Shown here piece after piece: positions 28,662 through 59,597 of a stretch of DNA of 64,000 bases. The notes under the pieces were generated by a model, which had not been told where the DNA came from, ran no database searches, and saw nothing but the letters and a program-made list of their open reading frames with translations. Every line of letters begins with the position of its first letter. The first letter of the stretch is position 1. Both the position numbers and the translations under genes were made by a program. The stretch spans positions 310,001 to 374,000 of the forward strand of contig NZ_JAINDZ010000001.1 in NCBI RefSeq assembly GCF_019802345.1. Direction: 5' to 3'. The DNA is from Methylosinus sp. Sm6. GTDB lineage: Bacteria; Pseudomonadota; Alphaproteobacteria; Rhizobiales; Beijerinckiaceae.

Positions 28662-28855
28662 GCCGGCGCGAAAAAACGCGGACGCGCCTTTCGGGATAGA
28701 AAGCCGCCGATCGTCTCTCTATGTGTAGGTTCGACGACATCGACTCGCCGAAGCGTCGGGCGCGGGGGCTCTTCGCGGCTGGCGTCTCGAGGGCGCTTCG
28801 CCGAGCGGCGGCGGGCGGACCGGACGAATGGGACGCAGGCATATCCGGGGCGCGC

Positions 28856-29284
28856 ATGGATATAAGCCAGGAACATCGCCGATATTCGGATGATCGCCCT
28901 CCCGCGGATGCTCGCCGTGGGGTCGAACCCGTCTGCGAGCCTCCCATTGCCGGGGAAGGGAGCGCGTCCCTCGAGCCGCGCCAGCTTCTCGACGACGCCC
29001 TGAATTGGATCGTGCGGTTGAAATCCGGCGAGGCGACGGAGGCCGATCTCGAGGCGTTGCGGCGCTGGCGCGATCGGAGCGCCCGTCATGACGAGGCGTT
29101 TCGCGACGCGGCTCGTCTCTGGCGTCGCGTCGGCGTTGCTGCTCGAGAACTCGCCGCAGAGCGGCGGGCCGAGCGATGGGCCGCGGCGCGCGAGCGCTGG
29201 ACCTGGCGCAGCGCCGTTTCATCGCTTCGCACGACCTTCGAAACGCTTTCCGCCGACGCCCGCCCCGGCAAACGCCGGCGGTGA
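28856..29284 (+). CDS. FecR-like protein reduced to the DUF4880 (cytoplasmic) domain
   Basis: 142-residue protein from ATG 28856. The only recognisable part is the FecR N-terminal domain (residues about 43-90): LLDDALNWIVRLKSGEATEADLEALRRW given as motifs ALNWIVRLKSGEAT and LEALRRWRDRSARHDEAF. The transmembrane and periplasmic FecR domains are missing; the C-terminus is a basic tail (ADARPGKRRR) ending in a normal stop. It could be a soluble partner or a truncated anti-sigma factor of the ECF factor upstream. No frame continuation with a FecR periplasmic domain follows downstream, so the short form seems genuine or long since truncated. Confidence 0.7.
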   Translation: MDISQEHRRYSDDRPPADARRGVEPVCEPPIAGEGSASLEPRQLLDDALNWIVRLKSGEATEADLEALRRWRDRSARHDEAFRDAARLWRRVGVAARELAAERRAERWAAARERWTWRSAVSSLRTTFETLSADARPGKRRR

Positions 29285-29507
29285 CGCATAAATCCGGCGC
29301 CCGACGCGGCGCCGGGCGCGTCGTCATCTCCCCTCGAAACCGCGTCGTCGTGGCGCCCGCGAAATTTTTCCCCGGGTCCATGACGAATTTTTTTCGGGTC
29401 CGGTCTCTCCCGATCGTCTCCCAAGTAGAGAGCGTGTGCTTTTTCGTCGCTCCGAGCGGAAGTCATCCGCACGGAGGGGATTTTCACTGTGCGGCGTGAG
29501 AGGCGGA
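29285..29507 (+). promoter_or_regulatory. Putative promoter region of the tpsB operon
   Basis: 223 bp without a gene. It holds two imperfect direct copies: GAAATTTTTCCCCGGGTCC (about 29361-29379) and GAATTTTTTTCGGGTCC (about 29386-29402), spaced about 25 bp apart. The second is followed by CGATCGTCTCCC. A/T tracts of this kind fit a FecI-type -35 element, and tandem copies could be two promoters or an activator site. The reading is inference; no mapped start is known. Confidence 0.4.
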
Positions 29508-31349
29508 ATGATTCTGTCCAAGGATGAGGCGGGAGGCCGCGAATGCTTGCGGTTCCGCGGCGAGATCAATTGTTCCGCCGTGGCCGTCCTCGTGATGTGC
29601 GGCGCTGTGACGGCGGCCGCTCCGGCATGGTCGGCGAGCGCCGCGAAAGCGGGGGAGGGCGAAGCGCGCCGCGCCGCAACGACACCCGTGGCCGCCGACG
29701 CTGAAAAGCCTTCTGGCGCTTCATCGGGCGAGGCAGGTTCGGGAAAGGCTGGTTCGGCCGACGCCGGCTCGGCCAAGGCCGGCGCCGACAAGGCGGCGAG
29801 CAAGCCGGCGCCGCCGGCGCGTTTCGACATCGACGATTTCGCCGTCGAGGGCGCCGAGCGCCTGACGCAGGTCGAGGTCGAGGAGGCGATCTATCCCTTC
29901 GTCGGACCCCGAAAGACGGCCGACGACGTCGAGAAGGCGCGCGCCGCGCTGGAGAAGGCCTATCACGACAGGGGCTTTCAAACCGTCGGCGTGTCGGTGC
30001 CTCAGCAGAGCGTGAAGGGCGGCGTTGTCGTCCTGAAGGTGGCGGAGCTGAAGGTCGGCCGGCTGCGCGTGAAGAACGCGCGCTATTTCGACATCGACAA
30101 AATCAAAGAGAAAGCCCCCTCTCTGAAGGAGGGAAACGTCCCGAATTTCGGCGCGGTGACGAAGGAGATCGTCGCGCTCAATCAATGGCCAGACCGGCGC
30201 GTGACGCCGTCGCTGCGGGCCGGCGTCACGCCGGGCACGGTGGACGTCGATCTCACCGTCGACGACAAGCTCCCCGTGCACGCCAATGTGGAGCTCAACA
30301 ACCGGCGCTCGCCGAATACGTCGGCGCTGCGCGTCGTCGGAACCGTGCGATACGACAATCTCTGGCAACTCGGCCATTCGCTGAGCTTCACCTATCAGGT
30401 CGCGCCCGAGCGGCGCTCCAATGCGGAAGTCTTCTCGGCCTCCTATCTCGCGCGCATTCCCGACGTCGATTGGCTCTCCGTCCTCGCCTATGGCCTCACG
30501 TCGAGCAGCGACGTCGCGACCGTCGGCGGAATCAATGTCGTCGGCCCGGGCCAGACGATCGGCGCGCGCGCCGTGATGTCGCTTCCGGCGATCGAAAATC
30601 TGTATCATTCGCTGTCGGCCGGGCTCGACTATAAACACTATGGCGAGATCGTCCGGCTCGGCGGCGCCGAGGCCACCTCGACGCCGATCACATATTATCC
30701 CTTCGTGCTCACCTATGGCGGCGCCTATCAGACCGAGGACTTCACCTCGCAGCTCAGCGCGTCGCTCACCTTGAACATGCGGACGGCGAGCAGCGACTTT
30801 TCCGCCTTCGACAACAAGCGCGCTTATGCGTCTGGACGCTTCGCCCATTTCAATCTCGAGGCCTCGCATCTGCAGGCGCTGCCGGCGGGATTCCAGGCCT
30901 ATGGGCGTTTCGTCGGCCAGATCGCCGACGGCCCGCTGGTGTCGAGCGAGCAGATCAGCGTCGGCGGCCTCGACAGCGTCCGCGGCTATCTCGAATCGGA
31001 GATCCTGGGCGACACCGGCGCCATCGGCAGTTTCGAGCTGCGCAGTCCCGATGTGGGCGAGATGCTGCAGGACGCGATCAAGCGCGAAGCTGCCGAAGGG
31101 GAGCCGACGGTCGCGATCTTCGATGAATGGCGCCTGTTCGGCTTCGTCGACAAGGGCGCGGCCGAAGTGCTGCATCCGCTGGCCGAGCAGCAGGCGCATT
31201 TCAATCTGTGGAGCTACGGCTTCGGCGCGCGCGTCAAGCTGCTCGATCATGTGAGCGGCATGTTCGTCTATTCGACGCCGATGATCCGCCAAGTCTACAC
31301 GCAGGCGAGGGAGCCACGCCTGAATTTTCGCGTCTGGGGTGAATTCTGA
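29508..31349 (+). CDS. Two-partner secretion outer-membrane transporter (TpsB; ShlB/FhaC family)
   Basis: 613-residue Omp85-superfamily transporter. A signal segment (about residues 20-45, SAVAVLVMCGAVTAAAPAWSA) is followed by a low-complexity Ala/Gly/Ser/Lys linker, then a POTRA domain (FDIDDFAVEGAERLTQVEVE to about residue 205), a second POTRA-like part, and the C-terminal barrel. The barrel holds the family motif SVGGLDSVRGYLESE and ends in LNFRVWGEF with a terminal Phe. It should export the TpsA protein at 38489. The ATG at 29508 follows GAGAGGCGGA. The stop overlaps the next start (TGATG), so tpsB is coupled to the ExbB-fusion gene. Confidence 0.9.
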   Translation: MILSKDEAGGRECLRFRGEINCSAVAVLVMCGAVTAAAPAWSASAAKAGEGEARRAATTPVAADAEKPSGASSGEAGSGKAGSADAGSAKAGADKAASKPAPPARFDIDDFAVEGAERLTQVEVEEAIYPFVGPRKTADDVEKARAALEKAYHDRGFQTVGVSVPQQSVKGGVVVLKVAELKVGRLRVKNARYFDIDKIKEKAPSLKEGNVPNFGAVTKEIVALNQWPDRRVTPSLRAGVTPGTVDVDLTVDDKLPVHANVELNNRRSPNTSALRVVGTVRYDNLWQLGHSLSFTYQVAPERRSNAEVFSASYLARIPDVDWLSVLAYGLTSSSDVATVGGINVVGPGQTIGARAVMSLPAIENLYHSLSAGLDYKHYGEIVRLGGAEATSTPITYYPFVLTYGGAYQTEDFTSQLSASLTLNMRTASSDFSAFDNKRAYASGRFAHFNLEASHLQALPAGFQAYGRFVGQIADGPLVSSEQISVGGLDSVRGYLESEILGDTGAIGSFELRSPDVGEMLQDAIKREAAEGEPTVAIFDEWRLFGFVDKGAAEVLHPLAEQQAHFNLWSYGFGARVKLLDHVSGMFVYSTPMIRQVYTQAREPRLNFRVWGEF

Positions 31350-33241
31350 TGAGAACGAATCATATCGACTTGCGGCCGCGAATCGAAGCGCGCCCTTCTC
31401 GTTTTGCGCGTGCTGCGGCGCGGCGGATGCTGCTGCTGCTGGCGATGCTGACCTTGTGCTCGTCCTCCGCCATGGCCTGGTGGAACGACGAATGGGAGAT
31501 GCGCAAGAAGATCACCATCGACGCCGGCGCTTCGGGCGCCAATATCACCGACGCGATCGGTCCGGCGCCGGTGCTGGTGCGGCTGCATATGGGCAATTTC
31601 CGCTTCTCTTCGGCGAAGGAGGACGGCGCGGATCTTCGCTTCGTCGCCGGCGACGACAAGACGCCGCTCAAATATCACATCGAGAAATTCGATTCTCTGC
31701 TCGGAGAGGCGCTCGTCTGGGTCGGCGCGCCGAATGTTCCGGCGGGCGGCAAGACCGATATCTGGCTCTACTACGGAAACAAGAAAGCGGTCGCGGGCGC
31801 CGACGCCAAAGGCACCTACGATCCCGACGCCTCGCTGGTGTATCATTTCGCCGAGCGCGGAACGCCGGCGATGGATGCGACCATCTGGGCGCATAATGCG
31901 TCGAGCATCGTGCAGAGCGCGGATGGCGCGCTGATCGGCTCGGGCCTGCGGCTCGACGGCCACGCGCCCTTCGCTATGCCGGCTTCTCCGACCATGGCCG
32001 TTCCGGCCGGCTCCGCCTTCAGCCTATCGCTGTGGGCGAAGCCGCTCGCGCATGCGCCGAACGCCGTTCTCTATAGCCGGCGCGATGGCGCCGACGCTCT
32101 GGTGGTCGGCTTCGACAATGGCGCGCCTTTCGTCGAGGTGACCAATGCGGGCGTCGCGACCCGCACCGCCGCCGGCGCCGCGGTCGCCGCCAACGCCTGG
32201 CGCCACATCGCCGTGGTCGCCGGCGCGGGGCGCGTGACTCTCTATGTCGACGGCGCCGTCTATGCGAACATCGACGCCGCGCTGCCGGCCCTGCAGAGCG
32301 TCGCCACGATGGGCGGCGAGGCGGGCGATACGGCCTCAGCCTTCGTCGGCGACGTGGACGAACTGCAGATGGCGAAGGCCGCCCGCTCCGCCGGCTTCGT
32401 CAAATTCGCCGCCATCAGCCAGGGCTCCGATCCGTCGAAGCTCGTCGCCTTCAGCGTCGACGAGGAGGCCGCCGGCTGGTCCTCCGGCTATCTCGCGGTG
32501 ATCCTGCGCTCCGTCACGCTCGACGGCTGGATCGTGATCGGCCTGTTGATGATCATGGCGGCGATCAGCTGGATGGTGATGATCGACCGTGCCTCCTATG
32601 TGAGCCGCCAGGCCAAGGCCAATGAGCAGTTCATGAAGAGCTTTCGCGAGATGGCGACCGATCTGACGGCGCTCGACCACGGCGACGCCGAGGAGGTCGC
32701 CACGATCGGCGGCCGCATCGGCGAGGCCGAGGCCGAGATGATGCGTCTCTCGGCGCTGTATCGCATCTATCACATCGGCGCCTCCGAGATTGCGCACCGC
32801 TTCGTGGCGGGCGGACGGCCGACGGTTCTGTCGGGCGCGTCGATCGCGGCGATCCGCGCGGCGCTCGACAGCGGCGTCGTCAAGGAGACGCAGGCGCTCA
32901 ACCGCATGATGGTGGTGCTGACGATCGCCATTTCCGGCGGGCCCTTCCTCGGCCTGCTCGGCACGGTGGTCGGCGTGATGATCACCTTCGCCGCGATTGC
33001 GGCGAGCGGCGATGTGAACGTCAACGCCATCGCGCCGGGCATTGCGGCGGCGCTGGTCGCCACTGTCGCCGGCCTCGGCGTCGCGATCCCGGCGCTGTTC
33101 GGCTACAATTATCTCATCTCCCGCATCAAGGATTTGACCAGCGAGATTCACGTCTTCGTCGACGAGTTCGTGACGAAGATGGCCGAAGCCTATTCCGAGC
33201 CTCGCGGCGGTCTCGCCGAGCGGCCGACGGCGGGGGAGTGA
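31349..33241 (+). CDS. ExbB/TolQ proton-channel protein with N-terminal DUF2341 and LamG-like domains
   Basis: 630-residue inner-membrane protein. After a signal/anchor (MLLLLAMLTLCSSSAMA, about residues 27-43) comes a DUF2341 domain (WWNDEWEMRKKITIDAG to about 150), then a LamG/concanavalin-like jelly roll (about 175-345, with FSLSLWAKPL, WRHIAVVAGAG and VTLYVDGAVYANID). The C-terminal 240 residues are ExbB/TolQ/MotA-like: transmembrane segments near 391-412, 520-552 (MMVVLTIAISGGPFLGLLGT) and 562-588 (VATVAGLGVAIPALFGYNYL). The extra modules would face the periplasm. ExbD and TonB follow, so it is the stator of a dedicated motor in this operon. Confidence 0.87.
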   Translation: MRTNHIDLRPRIEARPSRFARAAARRMLLLLAMLTLCSSSAMAWWNDEWEMRKKITIDAGASGANITDAIGPAPVLVRLHMGNFRFSSAKEDGADLRFVAGDDKTPLKYHIEKFDSLLGEALVWVGAPNVPAGGKTDIWLYYGNKKAVAGADAKGTYDPDASLVYHFAERGTPAMDATIWAHNASSIVQSADGALIGSGLRLDGHAPFAMPASPTMAVPAGSAFSLSLWAKPLAHAPNAVLYSRRDGADALVVGFDNGAPFVEVTNAGVATRTAAGAAVAANAWRHIAVVAGAGRVTLYVDGAVYANIDAALPALQSVATMGGEAGDTASAFVGDVDELQMAKAARSAGFVKFAAISQGSDPSKLVAFSVDEEAAGWSSGYLAVILRSVTLDGWIVIGLLMIMAAISWMVMIDRASYVSRQAKANEQFMKSFREMATDLTALDHGDAEEVATIGGRIGEAEAEMMRLSALYRIYHIGASEIAHRFVAGGRPTVLSGASIAAIRAALDSGVVKETQALNRMMVVLTIAISGGPFLGLLGTVVGVMITFAAIAASGDVNVNAIAPGIAAALVATVAGLGVAIPALFGYNYLISRIKDLTSEIHVFVDEFVTKMAEAYSEPRGGLAERPTAGE

Positions 33242-33244
33242 GCG

Positions 33245-33649
33245 ATGAAGGCGCAGGACGACGGCAAGCCCTATGACGACATCAACATCACGCCGATGCT
33301 CGATCTCGCCTATGTGCTGCTGGTGATCTTCATCATCATGACGACAGCGACCGTGCAGGGGCAGAAGGTCAATCTGCCCAAGGCCTCGGCGGCGCCGAGC
33401 CTTGCGACGCAGACGACCAAGGCGATCACCGTCGGCGCCGACGGCAAGCTTTTCCTCGACACGATACCCGTGACATTGCCGGAGCTGGAGCAGCGGCTCA
33501 TTCAGCAGAAGGCGCTGACACCCGACTTTCCGATCGTGCTGCGCGGCGATTCGCAGGCGCAATATCAGAGCGTCATCGACGTTCTCGATCTCTTGTCCCG
33601 TATCGGCCTGGCGCAGGTCGGTCTCGCCACCAAGCCGCTCGTGAAATGA
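33245..33649 (+). CDS. ExbD/TolR-type biopolymer transport protein
   Basis: 134-residue single-pass inner-membrane protein. It has the family hallmark INITPMLDLAYVLLVIFIIMTT, with Asp in the transmembrane helix for proton conduction, after a short cytoplasmic N-terminus (MKAQDDGKPYDD). The periplasmic domain follows (LPKASAAPSLATQTTKAIT to QYQSVIDVLDLLSRIGLAQVGL). It begins 3 bp after the ExbB-fusion stop, so both are made together. It should pair with that protein and the TonB encoded next to convert proton flow into mechanical work across the periplasm. Confidence 0.95.
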   Translation: MKAQDDGKPYDDINITPMLDLAYVLLVIFIIMTTATVQGQKVNLPKASAAPSLATQTTKAITVGADGKLFLDTIPVTLPELEQRLIQQKALTPDFPIVLRGDSQAQYQSVIDVLDLLSRIGLAQVGLATKPLVK

Positions 33650-33690
33650 GACGCAAGTCGGCGCGACGCCGGCACAGCGGAGACGCATTC

Positions 33691-34440
33691 ATGAAATGGC
33701 CGATTGATCCAAAGCATCAGCGCACGCGCGATCCATCGCGGCAATCGCCGCGCCGGCGGCGCGGCTGGTTCGAGCGCTACAAGGCCGCCATCGCCGTCGG
33801 CGGCGTGACATTGACGGTCGGCGGCATCGTCGTCGCTCTCACGCGGCACGACGATCTTCCGCCGCCCAGGCAGGTGCGCGAGCTGACGGTCATCAGCCTT
33901 CCGCCGCCGCCCCCTCCGCCGCCGCCGCCCGATCAAAAGCCGATCGAGGAGACGAAGTTCGAGGAGCAGCAGCAGGAGTTTCAGGAGCAAAAGCCGATCG
34001 AGGAGGCGAAGGCCGATCCGGTGAAGGACGCCAAGGCCGACGAGCCGCCGGGTCCGCTGTCGCTCGATGCGAAAGGGCAGGGGCCGGGCGACAGCTTCGG
34101 CCTCGGCGGCAAGCCGGGCGGCAGCGCCTTCGGCGGGGGCGGGGGCGGGGGCGGCGGCGGAGGCTGGGGCTGGTACGCCTCCATCGTGACATCGCAGCTG
34201 CGCTCCGCGCTCGAGCAGAACAAGAAGACGCGCAAGGCCAACATGCGCGGCAAGATTCGGCTCTGGGCGGATCAGAGCGGCCGCGTCGTCCGCGTGCAGC
34301 TCGCCGGCTCGACCGGCGATGCGGAGCTCGACGCGGCGCTTCGCAGCGAGGTGTTCGGCAATCTGACGCTGCGCGAGCCGCCGCCCAAGGGAATGCCGAT
34401 GCCGATCATCATCAGCATCACGGAGCAACGTCCGAGCTGA
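33691..34440 (+). CDS. TonB-like energy transducer
   Basis: 249-residue protein with a basic cytoplasmic N-terminus and one transmembrane helix (AAIAVGGVTLTVGGIVVAL, about 32-50). A proline run (ten prolines near 71-80) and a charged Glu/Gln/Lys stretch follow, then a glycine-rich hinge (encoded by a G-rich run at about 34134-34160) and a C-terminal TonB domain (WYASIVTSQLRSALEQ to PPPKGMPMPIIISIT). The start at 33691 is chosen for its GGAG site; an ATG at 33646, overlapping the exbD stop, would add 15 arginine-rich residues. It completes an ExbB-ExbD-TonB set. Its outer-membrane partner is not known; TpsB or the porin are candidates. Confidence 0.88.
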   Translation: MKWPIDPKHQRTRDPSRQSPRRRRGWFERYKAAIAVGGVTLTVGGIVVALTRHDDLPPPRQVRELTVISLPPPPPPPPPPDQKPIEETKFEEQQQEFQEQKPIEEAKADPVKDAKADEPPGPLSLDAKGQGPGDSFGLGGKPGGSAFGGGGGGGGGGGWGWYASIVTSQLRSALEQNKKTRKANMRGKIRLWADQSGRVVRVQLAGSTGDAELDAALRSEVFGNLTLREPPPKGMPMPIIISITEQRPS

Positions 34441-34512
34441 TCGTTCGGGCGCTCGAAAACGATAAATCGTCGAGCGGCGCGACGCGGCGCTGCGGGTAGG
34501 CTGGGGAGTTCG

Positions 34513-36369
34513 ATGTTGGAGAGAAATTCAATTTTTCGTCGCGGGGCGTTGCTCGTCGCCGCATCGCTCCATGCTCTGATCTGCGCGACGCCGGCCTTTG
34601 CGCAGAGCGCGGCGGATGCTGCGGATGCGGTGGACGTCGGCAAGCCGAGCGAGGCGACGCGGCCGAAGGTTTCGAAAGCGCGGGGGATTTCGCCCAATGC
34701 GACCGTCAATCTCGTCAATCTTCTCGTGAAGCAGGGCGTGCTCAGCGAGGAGCAGGCGCGCTCGCTGATCGATCAGGCCGAGAAGGAGGCCTATGTGCAG
34801 CGTCAGGCGACGAAGGACGCGACGGCGAAAGCCGGGGACGCGGCCAAGACCGCCGCCGCCGCGAGCGCCGCCGCCTCGCCGCCCGGCGTCAAGCATGTGA
34901 CCTATGTGCCCGAGATCGTGAAACGCCAATTGCGCGAGGACATCAAGAAGGACGTGATGGCGCAAGCGCAGAAGGAGAATTGGGCGTCTCCCGGCGTGTT
35001 TCCGGAATGGGCGACGCGCATCCATTTCTATGGCGACATGCGCCTGCGCTATCGCGGCATTTTCTATCCGGACGGAAACGATCAGATCAATGCGGTCAAC
35101 TTCAACGCCATCAACACCGGCTCGCCCTATAATGTGAGCAAGGCCTACGAGTACTACTATCCGACCTATAATGTGACGCAGGACCGCAGCCAGTTCCGCT
35201 TCCGCGGCCGCCTCGGCATGATCGCCGAGCTCGACGACAGCTTCTCGGTCGGACTGCGCTTCGCCGGCGGCGAGAATAATTCGCCCGTGTCGCAGAACCA
35301 GACCTTCGGCGCGGGCGGCGGCAATTTCTCGAAATATTCGCTGTGGATCGACCGCGCCTTCTTCAAATTTCGGCCGGTCGAGGAGTTCTCGATCACGGCC
35401 GGGCGAATGGACAATCCGTTCTGGTCGCCGACCAATCTCGTCTGGTATCGCGACATCGGGTTCGACGGCTTCGCCGCGCAGGGCAAGTATCAAGTCGCCG
35501 AGAATGTCACGGCCTTCGCCTCCGGCGGCGCCTTTCCGCTCTTCAACACCGATCTCAACGCCGGCATCAACCTCCCGGCCTATGACTACGGTCCGCCGTC
35601 GAAGCTGCCGAGCCGTGACAAATGGCTGTTCGCCGGCCAGCTCGGCGTCGCCGCCAAGATCGGCGCCGATTATTCTTTCAAGCTCGCTGCGACTTATTAT
35701 GATTTCAGCAATGTGCAGGGGCAGCTCTCGACTCCCTGCTCCGTCTCCAGCGCGTCCGACCTGTGCGACACGGATCTGACGCGGCCGTCCTTCGCGCAGC
35801 GCGGCAACACCTATTTCCCACTGCGCTCGATCATCAGCACCATCGCGAACAATGGCAACCAGCTCAATCAATTTCAATATTTCGGGCTTGCCCAGCAGTA
35901 TCGGCCGGTCGTTGCCGCCGCCCAGGCCGATTTCGGACATTTCGATCCGATTCACATCGTGCTCGATGGTGAATATATTTTAAATACAGCGTTTAACGGA
36001 AACTTGAACACTTCTTTCCTCGCCAATAATGTGGTGGGCGCGATCCAGGATGTGTTTCCGGGCTGGTATGTCGGCGGGCGATACGGCTATCTCGCCAGCG
36101 CCACAGTCGGCCACAAGGATATTCGGCATCTTTGGGATTGGAATGTGTTCGGGGGGTATAAATATCTGGGGTCGGATGCGATGGTCGACGCTTTCGTCGA
36201 CGCGGATTTCGGCCTCGGCGGCACGAATTTGAAAGGCTATTTCCTCGGCGGCAATCTCGGCGTCGGCGAGAATGTGTGGCTCGCGCTGCGCTGGATGAGC
36301 GCAAATAACATCTCCGGCTCGCCCTACGCCGCCGACGTTCTGCATCTCGATCTCAACGGAAAGTTCTGA
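34513..36369 (+). CDS. Putative outer-membrane porin (Porin_5-like)
   Basis: 618-residue protein with a signal peptide (LLVAASLHALICATPAFA), a helical/coiled N-terminal part (LVNLLVKQGVLSEEQARSLID to about 165) and a C-terminal beta-barrel with alternating aromatic strands (RIHFYGDMRLRYRGIF, SQFRFRGRLGMIAEL, NVWLALRWMSANN), ending LHLDLNGKF. The N-terminal 'keep one periplasmic helix pair' build matches putative porins of family PF16930. It lies in the tps/exb/tonB operon, 72 bp after tonB and 2 bp before the coiled-coil gene. No clear TonB box is visible. Possible roles are an accessory channel or a surface partner for TpsA. Confidence 0.75.
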   Translation: MLERNSIFRRGALLVAASLHALICATPAFAQSAADAADAVDVGKPSEATRPKVSKARGISPNATVNLVNLLVKQGVLSEEQARSLIDQAEKEAYVQRQATKDATAKAGDAAKTAAAASAAASPPGVKHVTYVPEIVKRQLREDIKKDVMAQAQKENWASPGVFPEWATRIHFYGDMRLRYRGIFYPDGNDQINAVNFNAINTGSPYNVSKAYEYYYPTYNVTQDRSQFRFRGRLGMIAELDDSFSVGLRFAGGENNSPVSQNQTFGAGGGNFSKYSLWIDRAFFKFRPVEEFSITAGRMDNPFWSPTNLVWYRDIGFDGFAAQGKYQVAENVTAFASGGAFPLFNTDLNAGINLPAYDYGPPSKLPSRDKWLFAGQLGVAAKIGADYSFKLAATYYDFSNVQGQLSTPCSVSSASDLCDTDLTRPSFAQRGNTYFPLRSIISTIANNGNQLNQFQYFGLAQQYRPVVAAAQADFGHFDPIHIVLDGEYILNTAFNGNLNTSFLANNVVGAIQDVFPGWYVGGRYGYLASATVGHKDIRHLWDWNVFGGYKYLGSDAMVDAFVDADFGLGGTNLKGYFLGGNLGVGENVWLALRWMSANNISGSPYAADVLHLDLNGKF

Positions 36370-36371
36370 TC

Positions 36372-36968
36372 ATGCGCCCTCGCACGCTTGCTTTCGCTCT
36401 GGCGCTGGCCGCCTCGCCGTTCTTGCCGGCGGCGGCCGCGGATTCCGAGGCGGACCGGCTCCGCGAGGCTCTGCGTGGCGCGATCACGCAGCAGCGCGCA
36501 TTGGAGGACCAGCGCGCCGCGCTGCAGGCCAAGCTCACCGAAGCGGACGCCGTGCGCGCGAAGCTCGAGGGGCAGGTGAAGGCGGCCAAGGCCGATATCA
36601 AACAGGTGGAGAAGGCGCATCGCGACGCGGTCGAGGAGTTCAATCAGCGCCTCACCGAACGCGATCAGACGCTGGAGAAATGGAAGGCGGCCTATGAAGA
36701 GGCGGCTGATGTCGCGCGCGCCAAGGACGCCGAGCGCGCCAAATTCGAGGCGCAGGCCGCGAGCTTCAAGGCGGGCCTGAAGACCTGCAAGGCGAAGAAC
36801 ACGGAGCTCGCCAGAATCGGCCGCGAGCTGCTGCAGCATTACGAAACGGCCAACTTCGCCGATCTCGCGGTCGCGAGCGAGCCGCTCTCGGGCGTGCGCC
36901 GGGTCGAGATTCAAAATCTGCTGCAGGACTACAATGACAAGATTCTCGATCAGAAGGTGACGCCATGA
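36372..36968 (+). CDS. Secreted coiled-coil protein of unknown function
   Basis: 198-residue protein with a signal peptide (MRPRTLAFALALAASPFLPAAAA) followed by an almost continuous coiled coil rich in Ala, Glu, Lys and Gln (residues about 25-150), with RAALQAKLTEADAVRAKLEG as a typical stretch. A short C-terminal part follows (IGRELLQHYETANF, then VRRVEIQNLLQDYNDKILDQ). It has two cysteines near residues 137-140 region (TCKAK). Two bp after the porin gene, it overlaps the PpiC gene by 4 bp (ATGA). Likely a periplasmic helper or spacer protein in the exoprotein export pathway; I cannot assign a family. Confidence 0.7.
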   Translation: MRPRTLAFALALAASPFLPAAAADSEADRLREALRGAITQQRALEDQRAALQAKLTEADAVRAKLEGQVKAAKADIKQVEKAHRDAVEEFNQRLTERDQTLEKWKAAYEEAADVARAKDAERAKFEAQAASFKAGLKTCKAKNTELARIGRELLQHYETANFADLAVASEPLSGVRRVEIQNLLQDYNDKILDQKVTP

Positions 36969-37963
36969 GCAGTGTGACGAAACGGCCCGCATTCCTGTCC
37001 CGAGCGCTTCGCGCTCTCGTGATCGGAGCCGCGCTCTCGTCGCCCGCGTGCGCCCTGGCGCAAACGCAGGCTCCGGCTCAAAAGCCCAGGCCGGCGGCGC
37101 CGCAGGTCTCGGCGATCAAGCCGCAGCCGCCCGCGGCCGCGAAGGTGGGCGAGGACGTCGTCGCCCATGTCGGCGGTACCGACATCACGGCGGGCCAGCT
37201 GCGCGCCTATGTCGAGGCGCTCGGCGCGCGCGAGCAAGCGGCCATCGCCAAGGAGCCCGGCCTGCTGAATCAGGCCGTTCGGCAGATGCTCAGCGAGCGC
37301 GTCGTGCTGCAGGAGGCGCTCGCCAAGAAGTGGGATCAGGAGCCCAAGGTGGCGGCGCAGCTCGAGCGGCTGCGCGAGCGCGCTGTGGTCGAGCTCTATC
37401 TGCAGTCCGTGTCTGTTCCGCCCACCGGCTATCCGGGCGAGGAGGAGATGCAGAAGGCTTATGACGCCAATCGCAGCGCCTTCGTGGTTCCGCGGCAATT
37501 CCAGCTCGGCCACATTTTTGTCCAGGCGCCGAAGGACGCCGACCGCGCGACGGAGGACAAGGCGAAGAAGACGCTGGAGGAGATTCAGCGCAAGCTGAAA
37601 TCCGGCGCGGATTTCGCCGCGGTCGCGAGGACAGAGAGCGAAGGCAAGGACGGCGGCGAACTCGGCTGGCTGTCGGAAGGGCAGATTCGACCCGAGATCC
37701 GGCAGCGGGCGATGGGGCTCGCCAAGGGGGGCGTGTCGGAGCCGATTCAGCTCGACGACGGCTGGCACATCGTGAAGCTGCTCGACACCAAGCCGTCCTA
37801 CACGCGCCCGCTCGCGGAAGCGCGCGAGCAGCTCGCACAGCAGATGCGGGCCGAGCGCGCGTCCATGCTGCGCCGAGCCTATGTGGCGGAGCTCGTCAAG
37901 CGCAATCCGCCCGTCGTCAACGAGATCGCGCTGTCGAATCTTCTCGACGGCGTCCGCAAGTAA
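36965..37963 (+). CDS. PpiC/SurA-type periplasmic peptidyl-prolyl isomerase
   Basis: 332-residue secreted chaperone-isomerase. A signal peptide (ALRALVIGAALSSPACALAQ) is followed by a proline-rich linker, a SurA_N-like helical part (about 60-150, VAHVGGTDITAGQLRAYVEA) and a parvulin domain (about 155-270; FQLGHIFVQAPKDA, FAAVARTESEGKDGGELGWL, PIQLDDGWHIVKLLD). The C-terminal helices return to the chaperone body. In this operon it most likely keeps the very large TpsA, or the porin and TpsB, unfolded in the periplasm. It overlaps the preceding gene by 4 bp. Confidence 0.9.
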   Translation: MSSVTKRPAFLSRALRALVIGAALSSPACALAQTQAPAQKPRPAAPQVSAIKPQPPAAAKVGEDVVAHVGGTDITAGQLRAYVEALGAREQAAIAKEPGLLNQAVRQMLSERVVLQEALAKKWDQEPKVAAQLERLRERAVVELYLQSVSVPPTGYPGEEEMQKAYDANRSAFVVPRQFQLGHIFVQAPKDADRATEDKAKKTLEEIQRKLKSGADFAAVARTESEGKDGGELGWLSEGQIRPEIRQRAMGLAKGGVSEPIQLDDGWHIVKLLDTKPSYTRPLAEAREQLAQQMRAERASMLRRAYVAELVKRNPPVVNEIALSNLLDGVRK

Positions 37964-37984
37964 GCCACGCAGGAAAGGCTGCCC

Positions 37985-38458
37985 ATGTCGGATTCCCTCA
38001 TCGCTCGCCTGACGCTCGACGATCTGCGCGAGCTCCTGCAACGAGCCGGCTATCGTGTGGAGGCCGCGACCGATCCGGTCGCGGCCATTCCTTATCTGCG
38101 CTCGGCGACGAGCGGCCTCGGCTTCGATATCCGGCCGGGCAGCCGCCTCGCCGGCGAGGGCGAAGCGCAGTTCGCCGACGTCGCTTTCGTCTGCGTGCTG
38201 CAGATCGTCGGCGAGCTGCCGGCGGATCTGATCAATGGCTGGAATGTCGCGCGCCGCTTCGCGCGGCTCCAGCGCGGCGGCTCATTCGTCGCGCTGTGCA
38301 TGGACGTCTCGGTGGTCGGCGGCGTGACAGAGGCGTATCTGCGCGCGCAGATCGAGATCTGGGACCGTCTCATTCAAGATCTCGTCGTCTATCTGCGCGA
38401 AGGTCTTCGCGAGCAGGCGGTCGCGACAGAATCGCCCGCGCCTGCCTCGGTGGCGTGA
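37985..38458 (+). CDS. YbjN-domain protein
   Basis: 157-residue protein without a signal peptide. The pattern LQRAGYRVEAATD, GFDIRPGSRL, FADVAFVCVLQIVGEL, INGWNVARRFARLQRGGSFV and LCMDVSVVGGVTEAYLRAQI-E follows the YbjN family (type III secretion chaperone-like fold). The conserved Asn-x-Trp-Asn and Asp-x-x-x-x-Gly-Gly-Val positions are present. It lies 22 bp after ppiC and 30 bp before tpsA. By fold and position it could act as a cytoplasmic chaperone or regulator of the giant exoprotein; that is inference. YbjN proteins have no firm biochemical role. Confidence 0.7.
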   Translation: MSDSLIARLTLDDLRELLQRAGYRVEAATDPVAAIPYLRSATSGLGFDIRPGSRLAGEGEAQFADVAFVCVLQIVGELPADLINGWNVARRFARLQRGGSFVALCMDVSVVGGVTEAYLRAQIEIWDRLIQDLVVYLREGLREQAVATESPAPASVA

Positions 38459-38488
38459 AGACGTCTTGAAATCACGGATGGGTCGGTC

Positions 38489-47400: not shown

Positions 47401-50400
47401 CACTCTCTCCAGCGCGGCCGGCGCCGACGCGGCGTTCGGAGCCCTCGCGGCCGTCGCCGTCACGCCGCCCTTCGCGCCGCCGGCCTATACGACGCTGCAG
47501 CCGGGCTATGTGTCGTCCGAGACGATCAATCCGCCGCATCCGGCGGACCTCATCGCCAATAATCCGGCGATCTACAGCGTCGGCAATGTCGCCGTGTCCA
47601 ACACGACGTCGGCCGCGAGCCTGATGCCCGTGAGCCTCGGCAACAGCTTCTCCTATGATCTCGTCGCCGGGGCGAGCTTCCTGACCAGCAACAAGGCTTC
47701 GGTCGATCCCAATGCGGTCGTCTCGCGCAAGTCGGCGGTCGATGCGACGGCGCCGAAGGCCAGCATCGTGATCAGCGGCCACACGAGCTATGATTTCACC
47801 TACGTCGACACAGAGACGCATACGACGACGATCCATATTCCGACGATGCTGCGGACGGGGACGGGCTCGATCACGCTCGCCGCCGCAGGCAATGTGGAAT
47901 TCACCGACGAGGTCGTTCAAGGCGCCGTCTATACGGCGGGCGCCGCGGCGGCGACGCCGTCCGATTACGTCGCGCCGAGCCTGACCAGCAGCTATCTCGC
48001 CAATCCAAACGGGCTCGTATCCACCCCCGCCTGGGGCACGGGCGGAGGATCGGTCGATGTGGCGGTGGGAGGCTCGATCATCGGCCTCTCTTCCGCGCGC
48101 GCGAGCGAGACATGGGCGGACTGGCTCATTCACTATGGCGCCTCGGATGGCGACGGCACGCCTTTCTCCGCCTGCGACGGCGGCGCCATCGCCTGCCAGA
48201 CGGCGACCTTCGTGAATTATGCCGCCTTCTTCCAGCAGTTCGGGGCGCTCGGCGGCGGCGACGTCACGCTGCGGGCCGGCCGCGACATCACCGACATTTC
48301 CGCCTCGCTTCCAGAAACGATGATCGTCGCCGGCGGCTTCTCCGCTTCCGATCCCGCGCATGCGATTTATTACGGCGGCGGCAATCTGCTCGTGCAGGCC
48401 GGCGGCGACCTGAACTCCGGCACCTTTCTCGTCGGACGCGGCGTCGGCCGCATAGAGATCGGCGGCTCGGTGCGGCAAACCGCCGACAATCCGATCACGC
48501 GCGGGCGCGACGCCGCGACCTATCCGCTGATGCTCGCAGCGCAGAACGGCTTCGTTTCCATTGTCGCCAAGGGCGATATCACGCTCGGGACGATGCTCGA
48601 TCCGACGACGACGCAGCAGTACGAGCTCGAGCGGATGACGTTCATTCAGAACCTCACGCCGATCGCCTGGCTGCCGGGCTTCGACGGAACGGGCAATGTG
48701 CTGTGGGGCAACAGCTTCACCAGCTATGGCGCGCAGGCGGGCCTCTCGCTCCTCAGCGTCGCCGGCAATGTGAATGCGATGACGCTCGCGGTCGACAATA
48801 GCCAGCCGGACGGCCCGGGACGCATCGCCTCGTCGTCGCTGCTGCCGCCGAGCCTCTCGGTCACGGCGCTGCAGGGGAATGTCACGATCGGCGAAGGCGG
48901 CTCGCGGACGATCCTCGCGTTTCCGACCGACGGCGCCGGCCATGACACGGGGGGCCTCACGCTCGCCGCCGCGGGCTCGATCGTCGTCGACCTGCAGCTC
49001 GACACGCCGTCGGCCGCCGTCATTGGAACGGCGGCGCACGATTCCAATTATGTCAATCCGCTCGGCTTGTCGTCCTATTCCATGGCGTCGACGGCCTTGT
49101 CGACCAGCGGGCCGGTCGTCGTCGGCGCCGACGTCGATCTCGACGGCGCGCTATCGGTGAACCGGCCCGCGCAAATTAACGTCGGCCGCGACATCGGCTC
49201 CGACGTCTTCACCTTCATAGGCCTCAATTTCACTGACGCGGATGTGACGAGCTTCGTCGCCGGCCGCGACATCGGCGGCGCCTATCATCTCTACGGTCCC
49301 GGGTCGCTGTTGATCCAGGCGGGCCGCAATGTGCGCAGGCCGTTGAACGCCTCGCCGGAGAACGAGTTCTCGATCTACACGATCGGCAACGGGTCGGGCG
49401 GGACGCTCGCCGACGGCGTCATTCCGACGCTGCACAGCTATCTTCCCGACGAAGGCGCGAGCATCTTCGTGCTTTATGGCGTAGCCAGCGGCGTCGACTA
49501 TGACACGGCGACGAGGCTCTATGTCGATCCCGCGTCGGCGGCGACGAGCGGCGTCGACCTCCTGCGCTTCGTCGCATCGAGCCTCGGCCAGTCGCGGACG
49601 GAGGCCTGGACCACTTTCCAGGGACTCTCGGAGACGCGCCGGCATCTGCTGATCGACGAGGCTTTTCTCTCCTATCGCTATGAGCAAGCGGTCCGGCTCT
49701 ATATCGATCCCGCGTCGGCCGGAACGAATGGCGTCGACTTCCTCGCCCTCATCGCGGCGAGTCTCGGTCAGTCGCGCGAAGAGGCTTGGACGAGCTTCCA
49801 GAATTTGTCCGCGACGCGGCAGCGGCTCATGATCGACGAAGCGTTTCTCTCGTTCCTGACCAGCGTCGCGACGGACTATCGCGACTCGTCGAGCCCCTAT
49901 TATCTCAAATATTCGCGCGCCTATGAAGTGATCGACACGCTGTTCCCGAAGAGCGAGCGCGTCGATCCCGCCGCGGTCGGTCGGCTGGTGACGCCTTATT
50001 CGCTCATCGAGACGCAGGCGGGCGGCGACATCAATGTCATCGGCCCCGTCGGCGGCATTCGCGTCGGCTCGGCCGGACGCGACACGCTCACGCCGGACAA
50101 GGAAGGCATATTGACGCTGCGCGGCGGCGCGATCCGCATCTACACGGATCAGACGGTGCTGGTGAACCAGAGCCGCATCATGACGCAGCAGGGCGGCAAT
50201 GTGGAGATCTTCAGCGGCAATGGCGATATCGACGCCGGCTCGGGCCCGAAGACCTATGTCGCCAATCCGGTGCTGAGCGAGGTGTGCAATTATTCGACCG
50301 GCTATTGCTCGGTCAATCCGCAGGGTCTCGTCACCGGCGCGGGCATCGGCGCCATCGTCACGCTGCCGTCGCAGGATCCGAGCCTTTCCAACGCCGTTCT

Positions 50401-50764
50401 GTCGGCGCCGCGCGGCACGGTGGATGCGGGCGCCGCGGGCATTCGCGTGAGCGGCAATCTCGTCATTGTCGCGCAGAGAGTGAGCAATGGCGCCAATATC
50501 AGCTTCGGAGGCAATGCATCCGGTTTGCCGGCCAGCTCCTCCTCGGCCAATGTGGGCGCTCTGACCTCGGCTTCGAGCACCGCCGGCGCCGCCGCCAAGG
50601 CGGTGGAGACGCCGCGCGCCGGCAATGCGGGCTCGGATGCGCCGTCGATCATCACGGTCGAAGTGCTCGGCTATGGCGGCTCCGAGCACGACGCCGAAAG
50701 CGCCGGCGCCGCGGCGCCGCCGAGCAACGGCGGAGCGGATGATCAGAAGCGCCGCCGGCGCTGA
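38489..50764 (+). CDS. Giant two-partner secretion exoprotein (TpsA, filamentous haemagglutinin family, DUF3739-type)
   Basis: 4091-residue secreted protein. A long N-terminal signal region ends in LLAGASALVLAAFVTQGFEG. The TPS secretion domain (about residues 115-400) has LLINPNGIIFGAGSQVNVHSL, with the NPNG motif at 224-227. The body is a beta-helix built of short Gly/Ala/Ser/Thr/Asp repeats. A C-terminal DUF3739-like part ends in ITVEVLGYGG and a basic RRRR tail. Two 60-residue tandem modules occupy 3671-3790. The only cysteines I noticed are two CX6C pairs (3229/3236 and 3933/3940). TpsB at 29508 should export it, and the exb/tonB, porin and chaperone genes lie between them. Probably an adhesin or surface fibre. 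Confidence 0.92.
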   Translation: MTLRARAHSRRSVAPSAGFVASFSRKRLLAGASALVLAAFVTQGFEGAAARPLGGASVPAPAVAAVDGANAAAQQAATIARQSESSLTRATQAIQAMQAAQAAARAAAGAAVQPQIADGLSLGGGGRLPGLVVDPRVGSDPNLWINADLPKQSVGDGKTEVTIKQNAAQAVMTWLYYNVSPNTSVVYDQQGHENWVALNRIDATGAPSRILGQIKADGTVLLINPNGIIFGAGSQVNVHSLIASSLDIDGTAAASVFNGNAAYNKMTFEIAGLGAVTAFAPPNEAAANRNFVGTGSGQGLFPIATKLGVTVGNSTRFSMGTMDGVAASQAPGGGAIVVERGASLTTSVNETDDGGYVALLGPRVANSGSIKTQNGQVILAAQGSALLSEPQATATGVHTSIVVDQDFSGGENPSNSTFTSLTLGGAGLATNDGLLFAPNGAVTISSDRIEQKGVVAATTSVARPGSITFSASGDVIFGGDSVTTILPDEGSGTTPAGTATPDYFADSLQPRIEISGAGVDFQSGSLLRAPSAAVVIRGFSSPVLLESGATIDVSGLADVQVPVSKFLVTFVVTPNEVADSPLAAALIGQTVTIDTRLSGTRADGVSWVGSPVVDASGYAGLIPKTIEELLTVGGSLNISGKTFIQQRGSVVDLSGGYVTYTGGAINTTRLIGADGRFYDIGSADPGMRYVGSAAAGGFTVNHSRWGVSETYVNSLLNRAHYEETYIAGASAGSLSTTAIPILDGTIIARTVAGLRQRANAVGGGATRQTSLEQLPAGASLTITRGGNYLLETSEQAGDDPYGLADYAYGADYSTPTTVALLTDRLSATGFGSIEINPAGDVQPVVNMAEGATLTVAAGGAVDLAGVQRIDGVIRAAGGSITLTGSYASADAVSAPPPLVLGSHAELNVRGLWVNDQGAVGDALQGAAFVNGGSVSINTVAASYRLVQNDDSHILDATQSIILSSGSVIDVSSGGYVRADGQLKLGADGLPVGRGGNLSLRTYVGDWVALNPNANVYNEHPSGGNQPNAATVVLGGTIRSEGLGAGGKFTLQAPTVTIDGAANAIASYTSGERSGEVVLPARFFAANGFSDYALTSVYGSSTVTAGTHVLLQQTSYLPTDALTALPTGADLRDVARIGLAPDGLRNPVSFALGHVAYVYGETGPSTTAGVLLDSGARIVAEASAKAQASVRLESLGGSVTVLGAITVPGGEIELRAERTNVSGSSRLTVTVGAEASLDVSGVFVRDPTQIAYRTGVALDGGSIDLFAERAIDVQRGARLLLEGTSASVEIPSGAALSGERLVAQPIWSDGGVLTLDGPGAFAGTVSARGGAPLANNGSLVVTDPTVIEQAGVVGVSTSRYATADSLVIGVDTLNSSGFDSLSLPDVSFVGSMSVALRGSLILGGMLTARPGSDGSPAMVALDAGYVWLRQSDIDPSPARTGDGVLQVSAQWIDIGTPDTHVRDEGSQVTFRNFGSVTLESADAIRLIGSNVSSTRTGNRFVGSLAVAGDLTLKAAEIYPTSGTSFTLRATGKITVEQNGVASAPLSAGGSIILDAREIVQNGTLWAPFGQVVLGNKTTTASVTLGAGSLTSVSGAGTVVPYGYTVDGERWFVGDTTSDGKDYEGFRLTSSPARAITLNGAEVDTLQGARLDLSGGGDIYASEFVAGVGGSQNVLAGPNVYALVPTSSARVAPYDPTFASSATGAPFDSSLLNATAGQAIYISGGNGVPAGYYTLMPGMYATLPGAYRVTVASASTASAASWSLTSMDGSIYVTGQFANLITGARSSQNMVFQLQAQSTWSRYSQIDITSGARYIRELALTAGTAIPALPLDGGALTFAARDRLSIGGSFDFSAGESPLETGLTGVGGQLAISAAKILVLASDKTPAPGQTGYLTVDADQISRVGATTVLIGGSSSVDSSGDLAVTGVATDVEIATDASHRLTAPELVVVTRAGGGGIVVDEGAAIGAIGTAGSGGDRDIVVDGDGSLLRVSAGAMVSVTRSGATAQNGGILISENVSIAAVALTIDSSGSNRLGANVALTAKAFDLSAKIVDFGGDGASGGLVLSDAIIANFAGADSVRLRSASAINFHDADGLSIGDAAHPIGALILDGGGVYGEGGETRVFAANIVLTNTRGASTTANGLTGRDGRLRLDATQTITRDAGSMTANGFGRIDLVAGEEIRFSGSGSLTARNGSGDADVVLSARNVIAMAGSAQSLKTSGALTIVSTGAATAVTPTEIGGSLSLTAASILSSGALTALGGTLALTATEGDVTLAAGALVNASGTRVAIGGVTQDTPGGTVRIASQKGDVTIEDGAKVTVAASGRGYAGGVYIATGAEGVTTLHGAFDASAAYKDSGGTFVLSTGSIVGDLPWNGFTRRFETVVGHGDLVVPTGQTLNSTEVRLVANRGSVIVDGTIDASGPTGGVIGLYGAGETNARGVTTGGVAINAGAKLLARYAAPEADDPGYANGEAELNRNGGSITLGVTGYWDGVRLNADGSERVTREGSGKIVVASGATIDVSAGAGGTGGTVSLRAPVVTDADGRRDVNVSFYENASDSVIGASAVTLNAFAVWSTTDPTTRGAGRHFDGVIDPAGWFRSNGTRVAGTTDPVTGIFTPSGSVNANHVTFYQQTLLGFVNDPFGGAQATVEGHFGENVRSALHLRPEIDLYNPSASVNGGNITVASNWNFGAGSIDKSGAFNLLYRTTNGGEPGTLVLRAANNIDVKATITDGFYVRYDVGGAGATDAATLYNNEINSGLYQTYLTMFSNGALRYSAQGLNDLVSALGSSWGDFGLTGPANSSPASADFFDLSQSVFNSLQFSLRAPTVVAGSAEVVDQYNQYYAQYLEMFRAYETELTGLDLHGIDVNAANTGVSVTGGNIVSYADYSAILSAVVGSVAIDPSTLVVPTAPTTSSAYYDIRHGLGAIQFAENGSATTSASDYATRWAAYFYSTINLNIFNMTQTITLSQVVSDLTLSSAAGADAAFGALAAVAVTPPFAPPAYTTLQPGYVSSETINPPHPADLIANNPAIYSVGNVAVSNTTSAASLMPVSLGNSFSYDLVAGASFLTSNKASVDPNAVVSRKSAVDATAPKASIVISGHTSYDFTYVDTETHTTTIHIPTMLRTGTGSITLAAAGNVEFTDEVVQGAVYTAGAAAATPSDYVAPSLTSSYLANPNGLVSTPAWGTGGGSVDVAVGGSIIGLSSARASETWADWLIHYGASDGDGTPFSACDGGAIACQTATFVNYAAFFQQFGALGGGDVTLRAGRDITDISASLPETMIVAGGFSASDPAHAIYYGGGNLLVQAGGDLNSGTFLVGRGVGRIEIGGSVRQTADNPITRGRDAATYPLMLAAQNGFVSIVAKGDITLGTMLDPTTTQQYELERMTFIQNLTPIAWLPGFDGTGNVLWGNSFTSYGAQAGLSLLSVAGNVNAMTLAVDNSQPDGPGRIASSSLLPPSLSVTALQGNVTIGEGGSRTILAFPTDGAGHDTGGLTLAAAGSIVVDLQLDTPSAAVIGTAAHDSNYVNPLGLSSYSMASTALSTSGPVVVGADVDLDGALSVNRPAQINVGRDIGSDVFTFIGLNFTDADVTSFVAGRDIGGAYHLYGPGSLLIQAGRNVRRPLNASPENEFSIYTIGNGSGGTLADGVIPTLHSYLPDEGASIFVLYGVASGVDYDTATRLYVDPASAATSGVDLLRFVASSLGQSRTEAWTTFQGLSETRRHLLIDEAFLSYRYEQAVRLYIDPASAGTNGVDFLALIAASLGQSREEAWTSFQNLSATRQRLMIDEAFLSFLTSVATDYRDSSSPYYLKYSRAYEVIDTLFPKSERVDPAAVGRLVTPYSLIETQAGGDINVIGPVGGIRVGSAGRDTLTPDKEGILTLRGGAIRIYTDQTVLVNQSRIMTQQGGNVEIFSGNGDIDAGSGPKTYVANPVLSEVCNYSTGYCSVNPQGLVTGAGIGAIVTLPSQDPSLSNAVLSAPRGTVDAGAAGIRVSGNLVIVAQRVSNGANISFGGNASGLPASSSSANVGALTSASSTAGAAAKAVETPRAGNAGSDAPSIITVEVLGYGGSEHDAESAGAAAPPSNGGADDQKRRRR
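49499..49858 (+). repeat. Tandem 180 bp (60-codon) duplication inside tpsA
   Basis: Two adjacent in-frame units, 49499-49678 and 49679-49858, encode the same module. Each has LYxDPASA, then GVD, SLGQSR-EAW, F, LS-TR and IDEAFLS at matching positions. The module is helical and unlike the surrounding beta-helix repeats, and it sits before the DUF3739-like end. Confidence 0.9.
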
Positions 50765-56385: not shown

Positions 56386-56393
56386 GGTCCGCC

Positions 56394-59536: not shown

Positions 59537-59597
59537 AGCTCCCCGATTCGACAGCGAGAGCAAAAAATGTCTTGCTCGCAGGCCGGCGCGACAGGTC

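Follow-up and report, generated by a model that had tools for sequence, protein, structure and literature searches.

A conserved TonB-ExbB-ExbD motor encoded within a two-partner secretion locus of Methylosinus sp. Sm6

Gene content of the locus and its closest described relatives

The closest described counterpart of the gene cluster studied here, a run of two-partner secretion (TPS) and TonB-ExbB-ExbD motor genes in Methylosinus sp. Sm6, is the sigma-VreI (PUMA3) regulon of Pseudomonas aeruginosa. According to the parts of the literature covered, a scope that holds for every paper cited in this text, this regulon comprises pdtA, phdA, pdtB, exbB2, exbD2, tonB4 and PA0696-PA0699 (PMC2729926, PMC7035377, PMC4971064), and overexpression of VreI raises tpsA (PA0690), tpsB (PA0692), exbB2, exbD2, PA0696-PA0698 and the PpiC gene PA0699 (PMC2729926). 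The genes phdA, pdtB, exbB2D2, tonB4 and PA0696-PA0701 are transcribed from one promoter with a requirement for PhoB (PMC4971064), and the cluster is under phosphate-starvation control (PMC7035377, PMC4971064). PUMA3 homologues in other bacteria were associated in 2009 with TPS, ExbBD and PA0696 homologues (PMC2729926). The gene set is already known in P. aeruginosa, and its motor is unexplained in the literature covered: a 2020 paper terms it 'still uncharacterized' (PMC7035377), no export test of exbB2, exbD2 or tonB4 was found in what those papers report on the sigma-VreI cluster, and a literature search on DUF3739, a domain of the TpsA exoprotein, found no paper.

Systems from other bacteria also provide points of reference. 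In Salmonella, secretion of SiiE continues without SiiAB while invasion and virulence fall, and by what means SiiAB puts proton-motive force to use in holding and releasing SiiE is described as unclear (PMC12607715). Secretion of PopC through Oar, when rebuilt in E. coli, needs ExbB, ExbD and TonB, and in Myxococcus exb mutants PopC secretion is merely reduced (PMC6434023). TPS translocation into liposomes has been reported without external energy, and the C-terminus of the exoprotein HxuA is expected to remain periplasmic (PMC5422565).

The Sm6 locus lies in a window of 64,000 nucleotides, the whole stretch of DNA that was analyzed (contig NZ_JAINDZ010000001.1, positions 310,001 to 374,000). 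Its nine named genes, tpsB to tpsA, form a single plus-strand run with overlaps of at most 4 bases and gaps of at most 72 bases, as established from open reading frames and Pfam matches (Table 1). The same data bear out the nine genes and domain calls of the original prediction, which had been made from the letters of the DNA alone; its start of tpsB at 29508 is a later start in the frame that opens at 29436. The features of type Vb secretion are present, namely a TpsB with a POTRA_2 domain and ShlB barrel and a large exoprotein with an N-terminal TPS domain, and TpsB would be expected to export TpsA in the usual two-partner way. The view that the locus represents an undescribed system has to be given up, as the gene set is that of the published sigma-VreI regulon, whose conserved association was reported in 2009. 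Common to the Sm6 and P. aeruginosa clusters are the TPS pair, ExbB, ExbD, TonB, the porin, a signal-peptide protein (PA0697), YbjN and PpiC, with an extracytoplasmic function (ECF) sigma system nearby in both. In contrast to P. aeruginosa, tpsA comes last in the Sm6 run, the order of YbjN and PpiC is swapped and the anti-sigma gene is truncated; no vreA-like or hxc genes are present among the examined neighbours. Matched by annotation and gene order rather than by direct sequence comparison, the Sm6 locus is in our assignment an alphaproteobacterial member of the sigma-VreI regulon gene cluster, with membership limited to the structural genes because the anti-sigma gene is truncated and no vreA-like gene was seen.

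Co-inheritance of the motor with DUF3739-class TPS

Three domains track the cluster across genomes: DUF3739 of TpsA, DUF2341 of the ExbB fusion and the porin family Porin_5. Among 349 Pseudomonadota genomes, DUF3739 was found in 11, DUF2341 in 10 and Porin_5 in 15 (11 full-length, four partial), and the 11 DUF3739 genomes are exactly the 11 with a full-length Porin_5. DUF2341 occurs in 10 of these and is missing in G284 alone, where the porin contig of 3.8 kb begins within the exbB gene. The chance of identical random sets of 11 is about 5e-21, a figure that overstates the case, as these genomes (from 10 genera) share ancestry. Of 200 genomes from the order to which G324 belongs, 23 have DUF3739, 27 Porin_5 (23 strong, four partial), 25 DUF2341 and 22 all three domains. 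Mismatches occur in G469 and G420, with partial gene sets at contig ends; G392, with only a 3.5 kb contig that holds exbB, two exbD-like frames and tonB; and G381 and G471, with DUF2341 inside frames of more than 1,350 aa. The two samples overlap, with G324, G255 and G019 among the positives common to both. The association is far above chance, in agreement with the original claim that the motor belongs with the TPS locus, for which chance-level co-occurrence had been named as the contrary outcome.

When bacterial genomes were scanned with the ExbB fusion as query, 75 loci emerged, five of which (L055, L070, L076, L080 and L082) match fewer than 450 query residues; each feature was scored where the contig was long enough. 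By record titles, from which the group names are taken, the 75 loci span alpha-, beta- and gammaproteobacteria, Nitrospirae, deltaproteobacteria and Verrucomicrobia, many of the records being metagenome assemblies. The exbB-fusion relatives have ExbD (68/69) and TonB (67/68) as neighbours, and a TPS gene lies immediately 5' of the fusion in 70 of 71 loci (TpsB in 41, TpsA in 29). In 64 of 66 loci Porin_5 follows exbB within 5 kb, in most cases straight after tonB, while a coiled-coil or YbjN gene lies downstream in 54 of 55 and PpiC in 30 of 55. Together with the co-occurrence counts, these neighbourhoods rule out the gene run as an artefact or the product of chance; the cluster is real and strongly conserved.

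Its genes are arranged in two layouts. The first, tpsB-exbB-exbD-tonB-porin-helpers-tpsA, is that of Sm6 and recurs with the regulators included on plasmid pMSC49a of Methylosinus sp. C49; the second is tpsA-exbB-exbD-tonB-porin, followed in both examples examined by ankyrin-repeat and coiled-coil genes, with the ankyrin-repeat gene directly after the porin (L041:14474-15307, from a betaproteobacterium, and L124:17550-18437, from G019). In G019 the gene tpsB stands ahead of tpsA, and the G469 contig, up to where it breaks off, shows the same order. A conjugative plasmid of Klebsiella quasipneumoniae carries tpsA, tpsB, exbB, exbD, tonB, porin, a hypothetical gene, YbjN, PpiC, a hypothetical gene and LysR, an order that from the porin onward equals the one given for P. 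aeruginosa PA0696-PA0701 in the 2020 paper (PMC7035377); YbjN, PpiC and LysR also stand in a row in G130. The cluster is near an IS26 element and arsenic-resistance genes on this plasmid (L135) and, the plasmid being typed as conjugative, may therefore travel as a unit. On a Methylomagnum plasmid about 17 kb, including alkaline phosphatase genes, separate exbB-exbD-tonB from tpsA; no porin is annotated beside the motor, and the 31 kb stretch covered has neither a porin nor a tpsB match. L060, a metagenome assembly with unread bases, has no porin match. In G268 the motor and tpsA-tpsB-porin are both present on different contigs, the motor at a distance of about 39 kb from the nearer end of its contig.

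The regulators are less constant than the motor, as ECF sigma and FecR genes lie upstream in only 25 of 64 loci. This variation bears on the possibility that the motor serves envelope signalling or stress control together with VreA and VreR and acts on neither TPS nor the porin. Such a role would suit the TonB-domain, STN-domain, ECF sigma and FecR genes upstream in Methylosinus sp. C49, the similar profile matches that precede many Bradyrhizobium copies, and VreA of P. aeruginosa, which is half signalling domain and half TolA/TonB-like (PMC2729926). As the motor is constant where the regulators are not, we consider it very unlikely.

The link between motor and TPS is specific to one class. 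ShlB-type TpsB is found in 148 of the 349 genomes, including 10 of the 11 cluster-positive ones, yet in 120 loci of other TpsB genes, among the matches listed, profiles detected no ExbB, ExbD or Porin_5 within about 6 kb. These loci derive from 150 listed places after exclusion of six cluster places, contig C140 (analyzed apart), two places inside fetched regions and 21 high-scoring ones; 21 of the 120 regions are shorter than 12 kb, at contig ends, and the TpsB profile itself matched in 114. The ExbB and ExbD profiles were home-made, seeded with the ExbB genes of this genome and with cluster members. In a Trichlorobacter record, whose genes lay outside the seed, they recovered the annotated exbB and exbD but missed a divergent MotA/TolQ-family gene. 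A single region, L229, holds a 60-residue TonB-profile match without ExbB or ExbD. Because no ExbB, ExbD or Porin_5 was detected at the other TpsB loci sampled, the motor goes with DUF3739-class TPS and not with TPS at large; this near-obligate, class-specific link is new relative to the published work.

Such tight linkage to DUF3739 TpsA proteins, whose uncut reading frames run to about 3,300 to 5,100 residues, also raises the possibility of TonB-powered export, in which the motor, as the original prediction suggested, drives TpsA through TpsB; for some 4,000 residues the energy of folding may be insufficient. PopC and Oar offer a precedent for ExbB-ExbD-TonB-dependent secretion (PMC6434023). 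However, the 120 other TpsB loci, some of whose TpsA may be large too, showed no motor genes; TPS translocation into liposomes is reported to proceed without external energy (PMC5422565); and SiiAB is not needed for SiiE secretion (PMC12607715). Nor was a conserved contact site found ahead of POTRA1 on TpsB, where 53 sequences show no conserved motif. The length ahead of POTRA1 (median 32 in 48 of the 53 cluster TpsB versus 45 in 80 of 116 other TpsB frames) overlaps widely and is not evidence. We regard powered export as unlikely.

The Sm6 genome itself holds one DUF2341 match, one Porin_5 match and three DUF3739 genes. It also has, on contig C140 (L144 6411-13370), a row of tpsA with a GLUG motif, tpsB, a short exbB, exbD and tonB that is not of the DUF3739 class. 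We considered this locus as a second motor-bearing TPS class, which would favour TPS as the client of the motor, and gave it low weight. Its juxtaposition is probably local because a related tpsA-tpsB pair in Methylosinus sp. C49 has no exbB, exbD or tonB annotated beside it and the best plasmid relative of the C140 ExbB accompanies exbD, tonB and a TonB-dependent receptor.

The motor and its candidate handles on TpsA and the porin

ExbB, ExbD and TonB domains are encoded together at the Sm6 locus (PF01618, PF02472 and PF13103, the TonB_2 match being weak). The ExbB fusion runs from a signal-peptide-like start through DUF2341 and a LamG-like domain to the ExbB/TolQ channel, and its N-terminal DUF2341-LamG part should, by the topology we assume for ExbB, be periplasmic. 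TonB consists of one membrane helix (by eye), a Pro-rich and Gly-rich linker and the C-terminal TonB_2 domain. The channel Asp of ExbD is kept in 82/82 sequences and both channel Thr of ExbB in 83/83 readable of 86, residues whose roles in the channel we presume. Searches of the Protein Data Bank returned only TolQ and ExbB for the ExbB fusion, no match up to E 1 for the porin, and for TonB no TonB entry, the matches falling mainly on the Pro/Gly-rich linker.

Two conserved motifs provide candidate TonB handles. The first, phi-phi-x-V-[EDKQR]-[VIL]-phi-x-[FY], belongs to the TpsA tail, where a linker of varying length, in many cases rich in Ala, separates it from DUF3739; in many sequences it closes the protein. 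The C-terminal part of Sm6 TpsA comprises DUF3739 (at 3902-4014), an Ala-rich linker, the tail motif SIITVEVLGYGG and a basic end. The strict pattern is present in 40 of 46 TpsA C-termini versus 0 of 2,200 random windows from the same proteins, and the six misses show a recognisable variant by eye in five cases and none in L129. The motif is retained in tpsA paralogues on other contigs of the same genome. The second, [RH]-V-[TP]-Y-V-P-E-x-V-K, lies near the porin N-terminus preceded by an Ala/Pro linker, and in Sm6 reads HVTYVPE (about 34894-34914). The pattern [VI]-x-[YF]-[VIL]-P is found in 71 of 78 aligned motor-linked porins versus none of eight Porin_5 relatives whose genomes lack the cluster; in these eight the N-terminal region is similar by eye and no ExbB, ExbD, TpsB, TonB or DUF3739 profile match occurs in the surrounding 10-12 kb. 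The Klebsiella quasipneumoniae plasmid copy carries both motifs.

From the parts, their near-obligate co-inheritance and the motifs, all observed directly, we infer that the motor acts after export, at the outer membrane, on the TpsA tail, the porin or both, and not as an export pump, a reading that we favour tentatively and rate as nearly even. TpsB would export TpsA as usual, with folding supplying the power, and the TpsA tail (DUF3739, flexible linker and hydrophobic strand-like motif) would remain periplasmic, its linker perhaps having the length needed to pass through TpsB. Driven by the proton channel of ExbB and ExbD, TonB would then bind the tail motif, the porin N-terminal motif or both, and either pull on or free the anchored TpsA fibre or gate a TPS-porin assembly. 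Docking to this assembly, or to the cell wall, may be the task of the DUF2341-LamG part of the ExbB fusion, with PpiC, the coiled-coil protein and YbjN as putative helpers. In a more specific form, which we consider doubtful, TpsA would carry its own TonB handle, through which proton-motive force would pass across the outer membrane to hold, retract, stretch or release a surface fibre, the porin carrying a second handle.

The motif on the porin lends itself to a different explanation, in which the motor serves the porin, whose gating the original prediction had also named: Porin_5 would be a TonB-gated uptake channel with the N-terminal VxYVPE motif as its TonB box, and TpsA a surface catcher that passes a phosphorus-containing substrate to it, as HxuA does with HxuC. 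The position of Porin_5 within 5 kb downstream of exbB in all but two of 66 loci and the distribution of its motif (71/78 versus 0/8) suit this explanation, as do locus L043, which retains motor and porin with no TPS gene in view, the phosphate-starvation control in P. aeruginosa (PMC7035377, PMC4971064), the PstS-like gene that adjoins tpsA in Sm6 and the alkaline phosphatases near the motor in Methylomagnum. However, the G268 porin stays with the TPS genes and away from the motor, the Methylomagnum plasmid has no porin annotated beside the motor and none was found in the 31 kb stretch, and Porin_5 of the locus has no match to the Pfam Plug domain. A motor for the porin would also leave the conserved TpsA tail and the partnership with DUF3739-type TpsA unexplained, and we consider it possible but rather unlikely. 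Either the tail or the porin may be the client of the motor: each bears a motif, and the split cases are divided, G268 keeping the porin with the TPS genes and L043 keeping it with the motor.

Several points weigh against action of the motor after export on the TpsA tail or porin. The likeness of the motifs to what we take to be the form of a TonB box is only suggestive of TonB binding, and TpsB, PpiC or the LamG domain could be the true partner of the tail motif. The patterns were drawn up once the alignments had been viewed and the sequences are related, and the eight motif-less porins are not independent because they come from three genera only. Nitrospirae and deltaproteobacterial TpsA proteins carry an altered tail motif, WLDVK[VI][VI]D, and members of these two groups account for five of the seven motor-linked porins without the motif. 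Locus L043, as noted, has motor and porin with no TPS gene in the stretch seen, and G499 was rejected as a second case of motor and TPS split: its contigs are probably neighbours, and the locus a single one broken by contig ends, because a TPS-domain frame nears the end of C27, the motor contig, and a DUF3739 frame reaches the end of C67. Its loss leaves our weighting unchanged because G268 remains and the split cases are a minor argument. In P. aeruginosa, mutants of PA0695 (a tonB homologue), tpsA, tpsB and PA0696 are wild-type virulent in zebrafish (PMC2729926).

A further point concerns the channel. The canonical ExbB pore Glu is absent in 83/83 readable of 86 sequences, replaced by Ala in 75 (Sm6 among them), Ser in seven and Gly in one. 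We take this Glu to be E176 in E. coli numbering, and with it missing in all 83 the channel may not operate in the manner of E. coli ExbB. The Glu is retained by four of the other ExbB proteins encoded in the same genome, and its loss is not unique to the cluster because the short ExbB of contig C140 is also without it. We take the motor to work like the ExbB family and claim no strict equivalence to E. coli ExbB.

Adjoining genes and comparison with known systems

Two regulator genes 5' of tpsB, for an ECF sigma factor and a truncated anti-sigma factor, had been left out of the reasoning of the original prediction (Table 1). For the anti-sigma product, DUF4880 is the sole domain match, with no FecR match in Pfam and no match in NCBIfam; about 150 bases separate its gene from tpsB. 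Methylosinus sp. C49 has a normal-length FecR-domain gene annotated at the corresponding place, and given the shortened gene, regulation of the Sm6 copy may differ from that of its relatives. A full vreA-vreI-vreR-type regulator set is annotated in C49, where the function of VreA is seemingly divided over two genes (L134:10595-11771), one for a stand-alone TonB C-terminal domain of ~100 residues and the other for an STN-domain protein. A scan of the window for pho boxes found one pho-box-like site with three mismatches versus 1.92 expected by chance.

Table 1. Genes of the Sm6 locus and its immediate neighbours (positions in the window; values are E-values of profile matches)
Feature	Position	Strand	Matches
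ECF sigma factor, VreI-like by position	28119..28661	+	Sigma70_r4_2 6e-10, Sigma70_ECF 9e-6, TIGR02937 9e-20
Truncated FecR/VreR-type anti-sigma factor	28721..29284	+	DUF4880 2e-11
tpsB, outer-membrane transporter, POTRA and ShlB barrel	29436..31349	+	PF03865 ShlB 2e-18, PF08479 POTRA_2 2e-14
exbB fusion	31349..33241	+	PF10102 DUF2341 2.6e-18, PF13385 Laminin_G_3 9e-16, PF01618 MotA_ExbB 7e-27
exbD	33245..33649	+	PF02472 1.6e-28
tonB	33646..34440	+	PF13103 TonB_2 4e-5, weak yet above cut-off
Porin_5 outer-membrane porin	34513..36369	+	PF16930 6e-199, nearly full profile
Coiled-coil protein, signal-peptide-like start, PA0697-like position	36372..36968	+	weak coiled-coil matches, no family of its own
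PpiC/SurA-like peptidyl-prolyl isomerase	36965..37963	+	PF00639 3e-22
YbjN-family protein, PA0698-like	37985..38458	+	PF10722 6.6e-5, weak yet above cut-off
tpsA, 4,091 aa	38489..50764	+	PF05860 TPS domain 4e-18, TIGR01901 9.5e-18, PF12545 DUF3739 1.4e-22
PstS-like phosphate-binding protein, convergent	51049..52929	-	PF12849 1e-13; TIGR00975 9e-11, far under its cut-off

The convergent PstS-like gene that follows tpsA possibly belongs to the locus, outside its core. A homologue adjoins the tpsA copy on C92, and in all such genes are convergent to tpsA at two of the three DUF3739 tpsA loci of this genome (51049-52929 and L115:16001-18331), in keeping with the link to phosphate in P. aeruginosa. 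Tetratricopeptide repeat (TPR) proteins with a glycosyltransferase 41 domain, which we take to be the family of HMW1C, are encoded near tpsA both here (53088-55343) and at the C140 locus (L144:4027-6258). They are possible TpsA glycosylation enzymes and were not found in the related loci searched. Farther downstream (56291-62999) lie lytic transglycosylase-domain, family 2 glycosyltransferase and TadE-like genes, possibly another envelope locus.

In several bacterial groups a whole TPS class is passed on together with a Ton motor of its own, which indicates that this class does something more, and the motifs in the TpsA tail and at the porin N-terminus turn the question of what the motor holds into peptide-binding and deletion experiments. 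Among known systems, Oar and PopC resemble the locus in the use of a Ton system for protein export over the outer membrane, but through a TonB-dependent transporter and not TpsB (PMC6434023). HxuABC of Haemophilus influenzae likewise has a surface-kept TPS exoprotein that works with an outer-membrane importer (PMC5422565, PMC4873976). Its importer is the heme receptor HxuC, whereas the Sm6 locus has a Porin_5 porin and a dedicated motor. HxuC is, we assume, TonB-dependent and served by the general Ton system. The nearest functional analogue of the TPS-linked motor is, by our comparison, SiiAB, a proton channel of the Mot/Exb/Tol family that is likewise dedicated to one giant surface adhesin, SiiE, but in type I secretion, with SiiAB dispensable for secretion and no TonB or porin named in the parts of that paper covered (PMC12607715).

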